Below are positions 1-48,714 of a stretch of DNA of 64,000 bases, piece by piece. The DNA is from Alphaproteobacteria bacterium. Its GTDB lineage: Bacteria > Pseudomonadota > Alphaproteobacteria > Rickettsiales > SXRF01. Within the stretch, counting starts at the first letter, position 1, and every line of letters starts with the position of its first letter. Under the pieces are notes generated by a model. That model did not search any database and was not told the origin of the DNA. It saw nothing but the letters and a program-made list of their open reading frames with translations. Location of the stretch: positions 186,001 to 250,000 of the forward strand of contig JAGVLO010000003.1 in NCBI GenBank assembly GCA_020049775.1. The letters run 5' to 3'. Made by a program: the position numbers and the translations under genes.

Positions 1-1107
1 TTAAGCGATGCCGGGTTAGCCTACGATGATCTCGTATATGAAGATTCCAAAGCGGAGTGGAAAAGCCCTGCTCCTTATACATTGAAAGATTTGAAAGCTA
101 AAACCTCTGTCGGGGTTGGAATGGTTAGTTTTTTCACTGGTTGTGGGGGAATGGATTTAGGCTTTGAATCTCAAGGATTTGAACATGATGCGGCATTTGA
201 AATCAATGAGCTGTTTTGCAAGACATTGAGGAAAAATCGTCCGAATTGGAAGATTTATGGTCCTCCTATTAGCTCAGGAGATGTTTCCAACTTTGAAGAA
301 ATCAATGATGCACTATCTAAAATAATTACAAAGCCATACGATGGTATTTTTATTGGCGGACCGCCATGCCAACCATTTTCAATAGCCTCGAATCAAAGAT
401 TTTCTAAATCCGGGGAAAATTTTAAACGGGTGGGATTCGCTCATGATAAAAACGGCAATCTTCTTTTTGACTACGTAAACCTGATTATTGAATTTCAGCC
501 AAAAGCATTTGTTATAGAGAATGTCCCCGGGTTAAGGGATCTTGATGATGGGAAGCAATTAACGCAAGCTATCAGCTTGTTGAGCGAGGCAGGCTATAAT
601 GTATTAGAGCCTATGGTTCTTGATGCCGCTGATTATCGTGTTCCACAATTCAGGCAACGGTTATTTGTAATTGGTTCCAGAACCAAAAAACCCTTTACTC
701 CTCCTAAGCCTTCGCTTGAAAAAATCGGGTGCGGCTCTGTTTTAATCAATACAAAAGCTTCTAAGCATAACGTTGAAACGAGAGAGCATAAAGCTGAGTC
801 TATCAAAAGGTATATGAAGCTGAAATATGGTCAGCGAGATCAATTGGGACGGGTTGATAGATTGAACCCGGCGCTTCCCTCTAAAACAGTCATTGCAGGA
901 GGGACTAACGGTGGTGGAAGGTCTCATTTGCATCCTGAGATACCGAGGACGCTTAGTGTGCGTGAATGCGCTCGATTGCAAACTTTTCCTGACGATTATG
1001 TATTTTTAGGCCCATCTGCGCGGCAATTTACGCAGGTTGGAAATGCTGTGCCTCCGGTTCTGGCGGCTCAAATTGCAGCAGCAATTAGATCATCATTTTT
1101 TGATTGA
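1..1107 (+). CDS. DNA (cytosine-5) methyltransferase, 5' end possibly truncated by window edge
   Basis: FFTGCGGMDLGFESQGF (motif I), GGPPCQPFS (motif IV), FVIENVPG (motif VI), QVGNAVPP (motif X). The frame is open to base 1 (LSDAGLAYDDLVYEDSKAEWKSPAPYT...), so the listed start at 82 (TTG) may be internal. Confidence 0.93.
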   Translation, partial: LSDAGLAYDDLVYEDSKAEWKSPAPYTLKDLKAKTSVGVGMVSFFTGCGGMDLGFESQGFEHDAAFEINELFCKTLRKNRPNWKIYGPPISSGDVSNFEEINDALSKIITKPYDGIFIGGPPCQPFSIASNQRFSKSGENFKRVGFAHDKNGNLLFDYVNLIIEFQPKAFVIENVPGLRDLDDGKQLTQAISLLSEAGYNVLEPMVLDAADYRVPQFRQRLFVIGSRTKKPFTPPKPSLEKIGCGSVLINTKASKHNVETREHKAESIKRYMKLKYGQRDQLGRVDRLNPALPSKTVIAGGTNGGGRSHLHPEIPRTLSVRECARLQTFPDDYVFLGPSARQFTQVGNAVPPVLAAQIAAAIRSSFFD

Positions 1108-1284
1108 TCCTATATTTAAACTAATGCTTCCAAAAATCGCATCGTCTTATGTTGTGACGGTGGTACCAATTTAGAATTTTACTATGGAAAGTAGTCACAA
1201 TTCGGGAATGCAGCCTTAAAAGCACCTCTCAAGTTCAGAAAAAACTTCAAAAGCGCTTAAAATAGCATCTTTTTGCCTGATTAT

Positions 1285-2115
1285 TTACATTCTAGAAGAC
1301 TTATAAACATGCAGGTTATGCCACGCTAGAAACTTTTTCTGATTGGGATGAAAATTTCCTACATTCTTTGGACTAATGCCCCAGCACTGTAACGCCTCTT
1401 TTGCTTGATCGGATAAGAGCATATCGCCATTGCCAGCGAAACTTAGATGTCCACGATCAAAGAGCCTGTCAATGTGTGGGGATAGTAAGAGACCATTGTA
1501 GCCATCCAAGCGCTCTTTATCATTACATTTATTCCACGGCTTTATGTGGCTGGCAATCAGCAAATTTGTATTTTTTAGTCCAGTTATGCGACATTGCTTC
1601 TCAATGCAAATAACGGCTTCCCTGAATTGGCCTTGTCCCATTCGTGCATTTATAAGCCGTTCTTTTTCTGTGGGAGGAAGACTTGAGTTTTCAATCTCAC
1701 GAATGTCTTTTTGCAATTCATGCTCGGGGAAAGTGCCTTGGCGAAGGCGTTGTGCAAATTCTTCATGGATTGCCCGCTGTTCTTCCAAACTGCCTTTACC
1801 CTTTGTGTTATAATAGCGGATGTGTTGATCTAAAGCAGAAAGAGCTTTTGCTAATGCTGTTGCTCCATCCTTCCCTTCGCTAATTCTCTCTAAAAAATAG
1901 CGCGTCGCTGGGGCATTCATTGTGCGTTGGTATTGGATACCCAAGCGCATGTTCCGATAGTTGCTCAAATATGCTTTGAGCGTATTGGAAGGCATTATGC
2001 TTTGGGTCAATGCCTCCCCATGCTTTAATTCCTTATCATATACTGCTTTTGCGAGTTGATAGGCTTGCATATAGGCTGTGGGAGAGATTTTTGTGCGCGG
2101 TGCCATTTTGTACAC
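1285..2115 (-). CDS. HNH endonuclease (putative restriction enzyme partner of the C5 MTase)
   Basis: CRITGLKNTNLLIASHIKPWNKCNDKERLDGYNGLLLSPHIDRLFDRGHLSF resembles the HNH_2-type motif of restriction-associated nucleases; adjacent to C5 MTase. Confidence 0.8.
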   Translation of the reverse strand: MYKMAPRTKISPTAYMQAYQLAKAVYDKELKHGEALTQSIMPSNTLKAYLSNYRNMRLGIQYQRTMNAPATRYFLERISEGKDGATALAKALSALDQHIRYYNTKGKGSLEEQRAIHEEFAQRLRQGTFPEHELQKDIREIENSSLPPTEKERLINARMGQGQFREAVICIEKQCRITGLKNTNLLIASHIKPWNKCNDKERLDGYNGLLLSPHIDRLFDRGHLSFAGNGDMLLSDQAKEALQCWGISPKNVGNFHPNQKKFLAWHNLHVYKSSRM

Positions 2116-2124
2116 TCATGTTCT

Positions 2125-2796
2125 CTATATGCGGCGCATCATTGGAATGCTTATCTCAATGCCCTGTTTGGCAATATCGCCAGCGGGCGTGTCGGCAATT
2201 TCAAATCCGTACCGTGAAAATAATTTTGCCAAATCTTCGGTAGCAGCCGTCAAGGTAATCCCGGTGCATTTAAGCTCTCTGGATATCCTTTCCACATTTG
2301 CAAGGTAAGTACCAAGTAATCCCAAGCCCTCAAAGTGCATGTGCGGATGTTGTCTCTTATCCTTTGGGATTGGCTTATAAGGATTGCTGAATTCTATATC
2401 CGCTATATGCAAGTGATTGGGATAGACATGGGCTATTAGAGTTTCTGCTACGGTATAATCCTTTCCCTCTAAGGCAAGGGTGGCATGTCCGTAGTAAACG
2501 TCAAATAAGACATCTTTCCCAAGTTGATTCCTGATACGCCTTATCAATGATGGGTCTTCATTATCGACGTATTTGGCGAGTGCTTTGGGCTCAACCGCGT
2601 CTTTTCCATCAGCAATGATGTTATCCCAGACGGACAATCCCATCGCGCATAATGCCGTGCCTTTTAGGGAGGTGATGGTGGGTAACTTGTCGCGTCCGTA
2701 TTCAGCAAAGCTTATGGCCTCAAAGCGGGTAGATAACTCATTTTTAGGCAGCGCTTGCAGAAGCAAAGAGGGAGGCATAGACGGTCTTCCATACAA
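2125..2796 (-). CDS. GNAT-like acetyltransferase-fold protein of unknown function in R-M cassette
   Basis: C-terminal GLGLLGTYLANVERISRELKCTGITLTAATEDLAKLFSRYGFEI resembles GNAT motifs A/B; 9 nt upstream of the HNH gene on the same strand. Start uncertain (TTG at 2796 or a downstream ATG). Confidence 0.5.
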   Translation of the reverse strand: MYGRPSMPPSLLLQALPKNELSTRFEAISFAEYGRDKLPTITSLKGTALCAMGLSVWDNIIADGKDAVEPKALAKYVDNEDPSLIRRIRNQLGKDVLFDVYYGHATLALEGKDYTVAETLIAHVYPNHLHIADIEFSNPYKPIPKDKRQHPHMHFEGLGLLGTYLANVERISRELKCTGITLTAATEDLAKLFSRYGFEIADTPAGDIAKQGIEISIPMMRRI

Positions 2797-2816
2797 GCAT
2801 TTGATTTTTATTGGAA

Positions 2817-3124
2817 TGGTGGGCCGTGCTGGGATCGAACCAGCGACCTATTGATTACTCCACTACTACGGCTTTAGCCGCCTTACCGAAGTAAGTTTGT
2901 AGCCCGGACTATCTCATCGTCATGTGCCTTTTAAAGGCATTTAGACGGGCACCGTATAGTCTCTACACCTTCTTTGACATTTCTGCCAAAGCTTGGCTCG
3001 GGATTGCCAACAGCATGACCTGTAAGGGTTCCCCGAATTTGATGCCTTTTTCACTCTTTGGTTTCCCAACGAGGCTCCTAATTAAGTCAAGAGTCAACCG
3101 CTCTACCAACTGAGCTAACGGCCC
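2817..3124 (-). tRNA. tRNA-Lys(CUU), interrupted by a group I intron (2858-3089), CCA encoded
   Basis: Minus-strand exons GGGCCGTTAGCTCAGTTGGTAGAGCGGTTGACTCT + TAATCAATAGGTCGCTGGTTCGATCCCAGCACGGCCCACCA fold as a full cloverleaf. Anticodon stem GTTGA/TCAAT, loop CTCTTAA gives anticodon CUU. Confidence 0.9.
2858..3089 (-). ncRNA. Group I self-splicing intron (IC3-like, Azoarcus tRNA-Ile-type) in the tRNA-Lys anticodon loop
   Basis: 5' exon CUCU pairs with internal guide GGAG giving U.G at the 5' splice site; intron ends in G. P7-like strands GACTAT (2956-2961) and ATAGTC (2907-2912) are complementary. Segments TCAAATTCGG, CCCGAGCCAAGC, GAAGGTGTAGAGACTA..ACGG and GATAGTCC resemble the Azoarcus ribozyme core as recalled. 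No ORF inside. Confidence 0.9.
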
Positions 3125-3686
3125 ACTGCTTATGAAAGCCCTGAATTTCTAAGAGATGGTGCGAGCAAAGTAAAGCCCAGACTCATAATTTAACGATACA
3201 AAAATACAATTTTCAGCATATACATTGGCTTAGGACGCTTTTTACAAAAGAAAACCTTACAAGCTTTTCAGGCAAATAGGATACCAAACTACCCCGAGCA
3301 TCTTATGCATCGCTTAAAAGCGACGATAATAGCTCTAAATAGTATTTAGGCGTAGGGAGTGCACATGCAAAGAATAAATAGTAATGGAACTTGCCGTTTT
3401 GCTGATTGTACGTTTCCTAAGCCGCGCTCTAAAGACTTGCAGTTATCAATTCGTAGGGTGCGGCCTCCATTGTTTAAACGGTTAAACACTAGGCAATTTT
3501 TTATTGCTTTTAAGCAATATCTTATGGCATAAAATGGGGGTGCTTGTTGGCAAGCCTTCTCGTTCGTGTAAGATTTCATCAGCCAACCGATAGATAATAT
3601 AACCTTATGCCAAGCTTATTATCTGAGCAAAGATTACGAACGCAAATATCCTAGATAATAAACTTGGTCAGCATAAGGATTATGTC

Positions 3687-4166
3687 ATGACACCTATCGA
3701 ATACTTCAAACTCCAAGCTAAAAACATGTTCAGGGATTATAAAACTCAAACATCCTACATTGATGATGTGGATGGTAATTCCTACTTTAAATACGATCCA
3801 AAATATTTCGATATAGATAGTATTTTCTTAAGCTATCACGGCTTCTTTGATGAGGGGTGGGATGAGAAAAATCTTAGTTTAATGCAGATTCAACATCTCC
3901 TTGCATATATGCTCGGATTTGAGAAATGGGCAGATTTAGCAAAGGCTTCGGAAGCCGAATTAGAACTCGCAAAACTGCTGTTCGATCATCAAGATAAGAT
4001 CAGTTTGGATGATTGGGAAATGTATATCGGGGATGTAGAGCATGATAATAGAACGCCTCTTGATACTGAGGCTAGAATAGGAATATTCAACATGGTTTTT
4101 GCCAACGTAGAGGGACACAGTAGCTCTTTCGGGGGTTATCGCATAACTAAACAAAATCTACTTTAG
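3687..4166 (+). CDS. hypothetical protein (159 aa), integrative-element cargo
   Basis: Intact ORF; no recognised domain. Confidence 0.6.
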   Translation: MTPIEYFKLQAKNMFRDYKTQTSYIDDVDGNSYFKYDPKYFDIDSIFLSYHGFFDEGWDEKNLSLMQIQHLLAYMLGFEKWADLAKASEAELELAKLLFDHQDKISLDDWEMYIGDVEHDNRTPLDTEARIGIFNMVFANVEGHSSSFGGYRITKQNLL

Positions 4167-4195
4167 GCATTTAAGTACATGCAATTGGGACGTCA

Positions 4196-5395
4196 TCAAT
4201 CCGCTTTGATGACGTCCATTTTCTTCTCTTCCATTGCAGTTGAAATGGCATTTCCTATAAGGCTAACAGCTTCCTTAAGCGCGGAATTATTTAGATGTGC
4301 GTAACGGGCTGTAGTGCTGGTTTGTGAATGCCCAAGTAGCCCGCCGATAATTGGTAAACTCAGGCCGTTAGCAACAGCAATGGATGCGAAGGTATGGCGT
4401 AAATCATGCATTCTTACATCTTCAATTTTTGCGAGTTTACGAACACGGCACCAAGACTTCTCCAGATTAACTAAATGTGTATTTTCTTCCCTACCAACAA
4501 TTACATAGGGATTAGCCGGATTTCTTTGGGGGTTTTCAAAAAGGGTTTCTAATATCGTTATGGCATCCAATGGCAGATAGACGAATTTTTCGCCTGTTTT
4601 TGAATCCGGTAAATTAAGCAGTCGATTGTCCAAATCGACATATTGCCATTTAAGCGTAAGTATTTCTGAAAGTCGGCTTCCGGTGAACATGATAAGACGA
4701 ATAGCTGCTGCTGCGCTTGGCAATATGGTTTTATTTGCTTCACAGTTATTTAATACCGAATTCAGGGTCTTTATTTCCTCCATCGATAGATAGCGTTTGC
4801 GTTTCTTTTCTGCATATCTTTTGAGATGACGACAAGGATTGGTATTGTCCGGTCGGTAGTTCCAAAGCTCGGCAAGGTTGAATGCTTTTGAGAGAAGAGC
4901 TAAACAGCGGTTGGCGGCTGTAGGAACGTGTGACAACGCAGCATGAATAGTGGCTATGTCATTTCGGGTAACACTGGAAACCTTGCAGTTACCGATGCGT
5001 GGCAGGATATAGTTTTGCCACATGCTTTCATCAATTTTAGCGCTGCTCGGCTTCTTTTGGGTTTTTGCGTGTTCTTTTAAGTAACGTTCGGATAGCTCTT
5101 TGACTGTAACCATATGACGGCGTGTTGATTTATCAGCCGATGGATCGCCGCCTTTGGCAATTTCAGCTTGCCATTCAATAGCAATAAGCCTTGCCTGATC
5201 GCATGTCATTGTGCCAAATACGCCGATTACAGGCCGACGTTGACGGAAATCCTTAGTTAGGTAGTAATAAAGAAAGACGCGCTTGCCTTTAGGGGTAATT
5301 TTGCAGTGAAAGCCCTTGATCTCGTTGTCCCAGACAAGCTTGTCTTTTAGGCCAGGTTCGAGGGATTTAACAAGAGTGGATGTCAGTTTTGGCAT
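4196..5395 (-). CDS. P4-type tyrosine recombinase/integrase
   Basis: N-terminal arm-binding-like region LVKSLEPGLKDKLVWDNEIKGFHCKITPKGKRVFLYYY; catalytic core TGSRLSEILTLKW ... HDLRHTFASIA ... LGHSQTSTTARYAHL. Start chosen at internal Met (MPKLTSTL); the ORF track starts at 5479. Confidence 0.9.
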   Translation of the reverse strand: MPKLTSTLVKSLEPGLKDKLVWDNEIKGFHCKITPKGKRVFLYYYLTKDFRQRRPVIGVFGTMTCDQARLIAIEWQAEIAKGGDPSADKSTRRHMVTVKELSERYLKEHAKTQKKPSSAKIDESMWQNYILPRIGNCKVSSVTRNDIATIHAALSHVPTAANRCLALLSKAFNLAELWNYRPDNTNPCRHLKRYAEKKRKRYLSMEEIKTLNSVLNNCEANKTILPSAAAAIRLIMFTGSRLSEILTLKWQYVDLDNRLLNLPDSKTGEKFVYLPLDAITILETLFENPQRNPANPYVIVGREENTHLVNLEKSWCRVRKLAKIEDVRMHDLRHTFASIAVANGLSLPIIGGLLGHSQTSTTARYAHLNNSALKEAVSLIGNAISTAMEEKKMDVIKAD

Positions 5396-5554
5396 AAGTC
5401 GTTCTAAGTATTTGCTAAGTAGTAATGTGGTGGATAAACCTGATACCACGATACTAATTTCGCTGAACGACCATATCAATTAAATTGCTGTATTATATAA
5501 AAAAAGATCAAGATGATAAAGGCTGGAACAGAATGGATAAACGGGTTACAGATT

Positions 5555-5600
5555 ACTCTTAATCAATAGGTCGCAGGTTCGATCCCTGCACGGCCCACCA
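5555..5600 (+). repeat. 46-nt 3' tRNA-Lys remnant, candidate attachment-site duplication (attR-like)
   Basis: ACTCTTAATCAATAGGTCGCAGGTTCGATCCCTGCACGGCCCACCA is tRNA-Lys(CUU) from the anticodon loop through CCA; no 5' half precedes it; lies just upstream of the integrase gene. Confidence 0.85.
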
Positions 5601-48333: not shown

Positions 48334-48418
48334 ATTAAGCGTAGCCTGACAGTTCAAAAATACTGCATTTGGCCCCGCAAACAAGTTGCCCGCCTGCGTC
48401 TTTTCCACTAATCATAGA

Positions 48419-48607
48419 GGCCGATGGTTCTCTGCCCGAAAGGCAGGGATAAAAGGGAATGCGGTCTTAAATCCGCAACTGCCCCCGCAACTGTAGGCGG
48501 CGAGTAACTGGTTCTACGATACACGGTCACTGGATTTCCGTTTACGGAATGTCTGGGAAGACTGACCAGCTTACGATGACCCGCAAGTCAGGAGACCTGC
48601 CATCGCG
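48419..48607 (+). ncRNA. Cobalamin (B12) riboswitch
   Basis: AAAAGGGAATGCGGT..AATCCGCAACTGCCCCCGCAACTGTAGGCGG...CACTGG...GGGAAGA...GATGACCCGCAAGTCAGGAGACCTGCC (B12 box); P1 CGATGG (48422-48427) / CCATCG (48600-48605). Confidence 0.95.
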
Positions 48608-48714
48608 TGCTACACATGCGCCCAACGGATCGGGGAAGGTCCACCGCGGTGTGCATCCGGCAATGCCGGAAGAGTGTGTGGCTGAGGTGTTTAATTTTTA
48701 TGGAGTGTGTCGAA

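Follow-up and report, generated by a model that had tools for sequence, protein, structure and literature searches.

A bacterial tRNA-Lys(CUU) gene whose anticodon loop is interrupted by a group I intron raises two questions: whether it is the ordinary tRNA-Lys gene of the organism, and what the intron does there. The gene lies in a stretch of 64,000 nucleotides from an alphaproteobacterial genome (GCA_020049775.1, contig JAGVLO010000003.1, 186,001-250,000 of the forward strand; G000:C12:186001-250000), which is referred to as the window. It occupies positions 2817..3124 on the minus strand and consists of a 5' exon with tRNA nt 1-35, ending in ...GACTCT (3090..3124), an intron of 232 nt with G as its last base (2858..3089), and a 3' exon with tRNA nt 36-76 including CCA (2817..2857). 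ARAGORN found no tRNA in the unspliced window. After removal of 2858-3089, that is, with 3124-3090 joined to 2857-2817, it returned a perfect 76-nt tRNA-Lys(CUU). The coordinates and boundaries given in an earlier, sequence-only reading of the locus, which had described a minus-strand tRNA-Lys(CUU) split by an intron of ~232 nt and had anticipated a cloverleaf from the joined exons, are therefore correct.

The intron was then examined for the features of its class. An internal guide, AUUA-GGAG (3075..3082, minus strand), pairs with both exons. Its GGAG segment forms a 4-bp P1 with CUCU of the 5' exon, closed by a U.G pair, and its AUUA segment forms a 4-bp P10 with UAAU of the 3' exon. Because one guide pairs with the 5' and the 3' exon, both splice sites are fixed. 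The sequence-only reading had correctly placed the 5' splice site after a U paired to the CUCU/GGAG guide and had recognized the terminal G; P10 is added here. Its division of the anticodon at U35/U36 agrees with the joined-exon tRNA and the guide pairing, and the two P7 strands that it had named, GACTAT and ATAGTC, can be read from the minus strand at 2961-2956 and 2912-2907, respectively. The match that it had expected to RF00028 (Intron_gpI) was also obtained. In a search of 551 bases, the full model aligned to 3100..2885 on the minus strand with 49.3 bits and E=1.4e-11. This is 0.7 bit short of the gathering score of 50 bits, so that the default scan of the window overlooked the intron. 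In an alignment of 108 related introns, P3 consists of standard pairs in every member (108/108), with changes on both sides at four of its six pairs, and the pairing of P8 and P9 is likewise kept through changes on both sides. P7 is present and nearly invariant and thus holds no covariation information. No ORF of the size of a homing endonuclease occurs on the intron strand of the 232-nt sequence, and no ORF of the intron's own was identified. Chance is excluded as the source of these signals, and we conclude that the anticodon loop is interrupted between U35 and U36 by a group I intron. In all likelihood, it would splice itself out to leave a normal tRNA. Neither a sigma-70-like promoter nor a terminator was found near the gene, whose transcription is predicted.

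The sequence-only reading had taken the interrupted gene for the organism's ordinary tRNA-Lys gene. The genome (2.54 Mb in 15 contigs, rated 100% complete) holds two tRNA introns detected with RF00028, one in this tRNA-Lys(CUU) on C12 and one in a tRNA-Leu(UAA) on contig 4. There are 40 other tRNA genes, of which tRNA-Lys(UUU) is one, and no intact tRNA-Lys(CUU) or tRNA-Leu(UAA) was found in the genome beyond the intron-bearing genes. When the joined tRNA was used as the query, the resident tRNA-Lys(CUU) was recovered in two pieces on the plus strand. Its 5' half (nt 1-41) lies outside the window at G000:C12:179218-179258, and its 3' half (nt 31-76) lies at 5555..5600 of the window (C12:191555-191600). 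The intron-bearing gene sits between the two halves on the opposite strand. Both halves contain the same 8 bp, ACTCTTAA, corresponding to the anticodon loop plus one base. This core forms attR at 5555..5562 (plus strand) and recurs at attL within G000:C12:179218-179258. The sequence across the left junction is GGTTG-ACTCTTAA-ACATTCC, and that across the right junction is AGATT-ACTCTTAA-TCAATAGG. Rejoining the flanks at the core gave a perfect intronless tRNA-Lys(CUU). The junctions themselves retain only nt 1-41 and nt 31-76, and the host tRNA is rebuilt at neither end.

Sister genomes, from the same genus and from others of the family, possess an intact intronless tRNA-Lys(CUU) behind the same upstream sequence. 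Together with the rejoined halves, this indicates that the resident gene was intronless and was cut by an insertion of ~12.3 kb. On the right flank, no synteny with the sister genomes was found, which leaves some doubt over a later rearrangement at that side. Resident tRNAs with introns do exist: 15 of 15 Arg(CCU) loci are without an element or a split core, and the Methylobacterium Arg(CCU) intron looks resident. The tRNA-Lys gene of the window might likewise have gained a group I intron in place, as cyanobacterial tRNA-Leu(UAA) or rhizobial tRNA-Arg(CCU) did, with the nearby element being a coincidence. This is, however, extremely improbable, since the intronless resident gene was identified separately as two halves, is syntenic with the sister genomes, and encloses the intron-bearing gene in opposite orientation. 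We rejected this explanation because the resident tRNA-Lys was found split, a decision that stands unless the assembly is wrong. Thus, the assignment of a group I intron to a tRNA-Lys(CUU) holds, while the gene itself is a foreign replacement copy inside an element.

The right-hand 5.6 kb of the integrated element occupy positions 1..5562 of the window, and its left end lies at G000:C12:~179255, as judged from the attL and attR positions. A tyrosine integrase gene (4196..5479, minus strand) adjoins attR. Its product has the P4-type order of Pfam domains, Arm-DNA-bind_3, Phage_int_SAM_3, and Phage_integrase. The element also encodes a second, short tyrosine recombinase. The cargo includes a C5-cytosine DNA methyltransferase, whose ORF begins before the window (82..1107, plus strand; PF00145, E=5e-59; PADLOC MTase_II), and a restriction-enzyme-like HNH_2 endonuclease (1285..2115, minus strand; PF13391; PADLOC HNH, REase_II). 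The methyltransferase and HNH nucleases constitute a set resembling a restriction-modification system. A 223-aa ORF directly downstream of the tRNA gene (2125..2796, minus strand) had no match in Pfam or PADLOC. Phage structural genes were not detected among the element ORFs scanned, which do include the P4-type integrase and the restriction-modification-like genes, and similarity searches of phage and plasmid records with the tRNA precursor as query gave partial matches only. The same tRNA is occupied in three sister genomes (L095, L096, and L097) by other islands, whose 47-bp repeats rebuild the tRNA, and one sister-genome island at tRNA-Lys(CUU) encodes an integrase with 37% identity to that of the window. 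The window element is a non-rebuilding version at this shared hot spot. Elsewhere in the window, a cobalamin riboswitch was detected at 48408-48618 (plus strand; RF00174, 115.3 bits).

To judge what the intron might do, we compared the spliced element tRNA with the resident one. The two are identical over nt 1-50, and their two differences form a compensatory pair in the T-stem. The element-borne gene is very probably a replacement for the split resident gene and would complement its loss. According to our model, the tyrosine integrase would use the 8-bp core to insert the element at the anticodon loop of tRNA-Lys(CUU), of which the host has a single gene. So short a core does not allow the host tRNA to be restored, and the element would therefore supply its own. 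The survival need for the element tRNA appears less clear in the case of Lys(CUU), because a tRNA-Lys(UUU) is present. The intron divides the core (ACTCT^TAA). Without it, the replacement would equal a perfect attB, as nt 1-50 match the resident gene exactly. Self-splicing would restore a normal tRNA, while the core would remain broken at the DNA level. Most likely, the intron would keep the element's own integrase from recognizing the replacement gene. An intron is among the few ways of breaking the core, because a change in the sequence of the anticodon loop alters the tRNA. We consider this explanation as a whole, with a split host tRNA, an intron-bearing replacement, and a masked core, to be probable. 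That att masking is the selective reason for the intron has an even chance in our estimation; the proposal draws on the position of the intron, the host-identical anticodon arms, the recurrence with unrelated integrases, and the constraint on the loop sequence. Against it stands the fact that group I introns and integrase cores both prefer anticodon loops anyway.

A related possibility is that the intron acts against other elements. With the resident gene split and the replacement masked, competitors with the same core would find no attB. The crowding of tRNA-Lys(CUU) described above, including the sister-genome island with a related integrase, is in line with this proposal, which would be the bacterial form of an idea of Randau and Soll published for archaea (PMC4090602 and PMC3293823). 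On the other hand, attL and attR would still be possible targets. No direct evidence separates a block of competitors from self-protection, and both can hold; we regard the former as rather unlikely to be the reason for the intron.

The same layout occurs a second time in the genome, with another isotype. On contig 4, an element of 31.4 kb (G000:C4:122045-153468; L094, L099) splits tRNA-Leu(UAA). Its nt 1-41 are found at C4:122045 and the 3' half from C4:153406 to 153468, with the common core CTTAAAATC, and a perfect tRNA-Leu(UAA) results when the flanks are joined. Within the element, about 170 bp from its left junction, there is a complete tRNA-Leu(UAA) whose group I intron is inserted at CTT^AAAATC (RF00028, 55.9 bits). 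UUA accounts for 106 of 15,041 codons in long ORFs of the window, which is normal use. Because UUA codons are used and the intron-bearing copy is the only intact tRNA-Leu(UAA) found, it would have to be spliced and functional, and gene content and established decoding rules indicate that it should be. A fragment resembling a large serine recombinase is located near the left end of this element. The two cases bear on a further explanation, in which the replacement is real and its intron is a neutral passenger from a tRNA pool rich in anticodon-loop group I introns, made harmless by self-splicing. The distribution seen here speaks against a passenger: introns occur in both replacement tRNAs of the genome and in none of its other tRNA genes (~42 genes in total), and the two elements, which have unrelated integrases, both carry the intron inside the crossover core. 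Moreover, with their host-identical anticodon arms, the replacements would serve as attB if they lacked an intron. We give the passenger explanation appreciable weight at somewhat below an even chance, in view of the wider survey described below. The general form of the masking proposal, namely that group I introns in anticodon loops of integrative-element tRNAs are att-masking devices that arose independently with different tRNAs and integrase families, falls just short of even.

The layout was also found on a viral contig (L232/L390), whose integrase is 37% identical to that of the window. Within a stretch of 8.6 kb, ACTCTTAA occurs once, at the place beside int that is expected for attP, and an intron-bearing tRNA-Lys(CUU), again split as ACTCT^TAA, lies 110 bp beyond this attP core. 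Another contig, with an integrase 97% identical to that of L232, contains an integrated right junction, in which ACTCTTAA is followed by the 3' half of a host tRNA-Lys(CUU). This half equals the spliced tRNA of the L232 phage over 46/46 nt. This result independently supports the core deduced from the window. Intronless replacement tRNAs, in contrast, speak against masking and for a passenger, as they show that the intron is not obligatory. They occur in L351 and in Aeromonas phage ST4, which has an integrase 61% identical to that of L232 and in whose intronless tRNA-Lys(UUU) 9 bp still match the putative attP without interruption, and they work in mycobacteriophages (PMC10865867). In L395, a relative among the viral contigs with an element at tRNA-Leu(CAA) (2860-2930 and 4362-4446), the intronless replacement differs from the resident gene by C32 -> T in the core, which is another way of breaking it. 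A rule that replacements have either an intron or a diverged anticodon arm was dropped in view of the ST4 match and of several intron-bearing copies that also differ from the resident gene in the outer stem.

In the 90 genomes examined at the level of the order, five tRNA introns were found, and all five adjoin or lie between split halves of the cognate tRNA. An integrase family unrelated to that of the window adjoins the Leu introns in two of these cases and on 12 genome contigs, with the attL half followed by the integrase and then by the intron-bearing tRNA-Leu. We searched 385 genomes of the class with this Leu-associated integrase, irrespective of introns. At seven loci, an intact tRNA-fMet or tRNA-Arg precedes the integrase, with neither replacement nor intron. 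At the loci with a split tRNA-Leu, the Leu(UAA) replacements carry an intron in four of four cases, one Leu(UAG) replacement is intronless, and one locus has no replacement within the stretch. Introns thus accompany 4/6 tRNA-splitting and 0/7 tRNA-rebuilding elements (Fisher p=0.02), a comparison that is unfair as a test of masking because replacement tRNAs are absent from the rebuilding elements. The window integrase has relatives in 64 of the 385 genomes, and the simple core pattern detected no intron near them at the 30 loci examined. As further observations, the leftover tRNA-Leu copy upstream of the integrase in L344 is a shortened tRNA-like sequence with a 5' half and a T-arm and without a proper anticodon stem or variable arm, and in the relative G009, 23S rRNA sequence is interrupted by a group I intron (L042 15-268).

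Tyrosine integrases of the arm type that use a core of ~8-11 bp in the anticodon region and do not rebuild the host tRNA are known from tRNA-dependent lysogeny, described by Guerrero-Bustamante and Hatfull in 2024 for mycobacteriophage Fionnbharth, cluster L, and others (PMC10865867). These authors raise the possibility of a second copy integrating into the phage tRNA as attB, a problem that an intron would solve. The phage tRNAs in their study are not described as intron-bearing, and the word intron appears once in the text. Our case differs from theirs in that the element is a 12-kb island with restriction-modification-like genes and a group I intron in the core, and in that complementation is a prediction. 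Known group I introns of bacterial tRNAs reside in tRNA-Leu(UAA), tRNA-Arg(CCU), and tRNA-Ile(CAU) (PMC3984707). The Lys intron resembles them in being short and ORF-less, in its location in the anticodon loop, in its guide pairing with both exons, and in its terminal G. It differs in the host tRNA-Lys(CUU), in the U35/U36 position, and in its location on an element with an integrase directed at that loop. A 2014 review states that every phage intron then known was in a protein-coding gene (PMC3984707). For archaea, tRNA introns have been proposed to act as integration barriers (Randau and Soll 2008, as cited in PMC4090602), and a model exists for Caldiarchaeum tRNA-Thr (PMC3293823). There too, an intron breaks an attB-like tRNA sequence and an element brings an intron-bearing tRNA beside a leftover fragment; the archaeal introns, however, are spliced by proteins, and the proposed mechanism is host defense or joining at the att site. 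Here, by contrast, the intron is of group I, and the replacement gene that contains it is complete and lies apart from the junctions. The prophages of Sinorhizobium meliloti that replace tRNA-Leu(UAG) (PMC11476347) likewise belong to an alphaproteobacterium, knock out a tRNA, and bring the same isoacceptor with them; no intron is mentioned there. In the open-licence literature, we found no paper that joins group I introns to replacement tRNAs.

If the masking proposal is true, the intron represents an RNA-level answer to a DNA recombination problem, with the anticodon loop kept and the crossover site gone from the DNA. It may then serve two ends, survival of the cell and protection of the element's own tRNA from attack by the element, and bacterial tRNA group I introns, hitherto treated as harmless passengers, would gain a possible job. 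The archaeal idea of integration-blocking tRNA introns was raised without direct evidence, and a system with a 232-bp intron makes it testable. The element also widens tRNA-dependent integration, described in actinobacteriophages, to include small islands of a distant lineage that carry restriction-modification-like genes.

A survey with the intron core pattern gave matches in at least 118 genome stretches and at least 120 viral stretches. Among the matches listed, 198 of 245 intron cores yielded a tRNA confirmed by ARAGORN, mostly Leu(UAA), followed by CAU and Arg(CCU), and also Thr, Lys, Asn, and Arg(UCU). The expectation of the sequence-only reading that Lys(CUU) is an uncommon host agrees with its share of 3 in these 198, the window gene included. 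The other two are in L232 and an Acidobacteriota MAG (L157), and all three introns lie at U35/U36. They form one clade (support 0.91), as if the intron travelled with its tRNA between genome, viral contig, and MAG, which favors a passenger. At 18 of the 103 genome loci listed, compared with 0.75 expected, the surrounding 8 kb contain a further, uninterrupted core of at least 11 nt. A core of at least 10 nt or an adjacent integrase was present in 24 of the 103, and no element within 8 kb in the other 79, which speaks against masking. Thus, tRNA introns occur in at least two settings, one of them being the element-borne replacement. Group I introns in tRNA genes (Leu, CAU, Lys, Asn, Arg, Thr) were found on at least 90 predicted viral contigs (L224-L343), some of which also have clear phage genes (RIIA, tail fibre). 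Nearly all of these contigs are without a recognizable integrase of these families in the examined stretch, L232 being the only one listed with a recognized integrase, which again is in favor of a passenger. Copies of the core are not in excess over shuffled sequence in the viral contigs listed (at least 11 nt in 2 of 90, with 5 expected), and masking is therefore not extendable to viral tRNA introns generally. Intron-bearing tRNA genes, which escape standard tRNA finders, are present on many viral contigs. On one of them, the 281-kb contig L309, two intron-bearing tRNAs, Arg(UCU) and Lys(UUU), lie close by at about 3640 and 4903.
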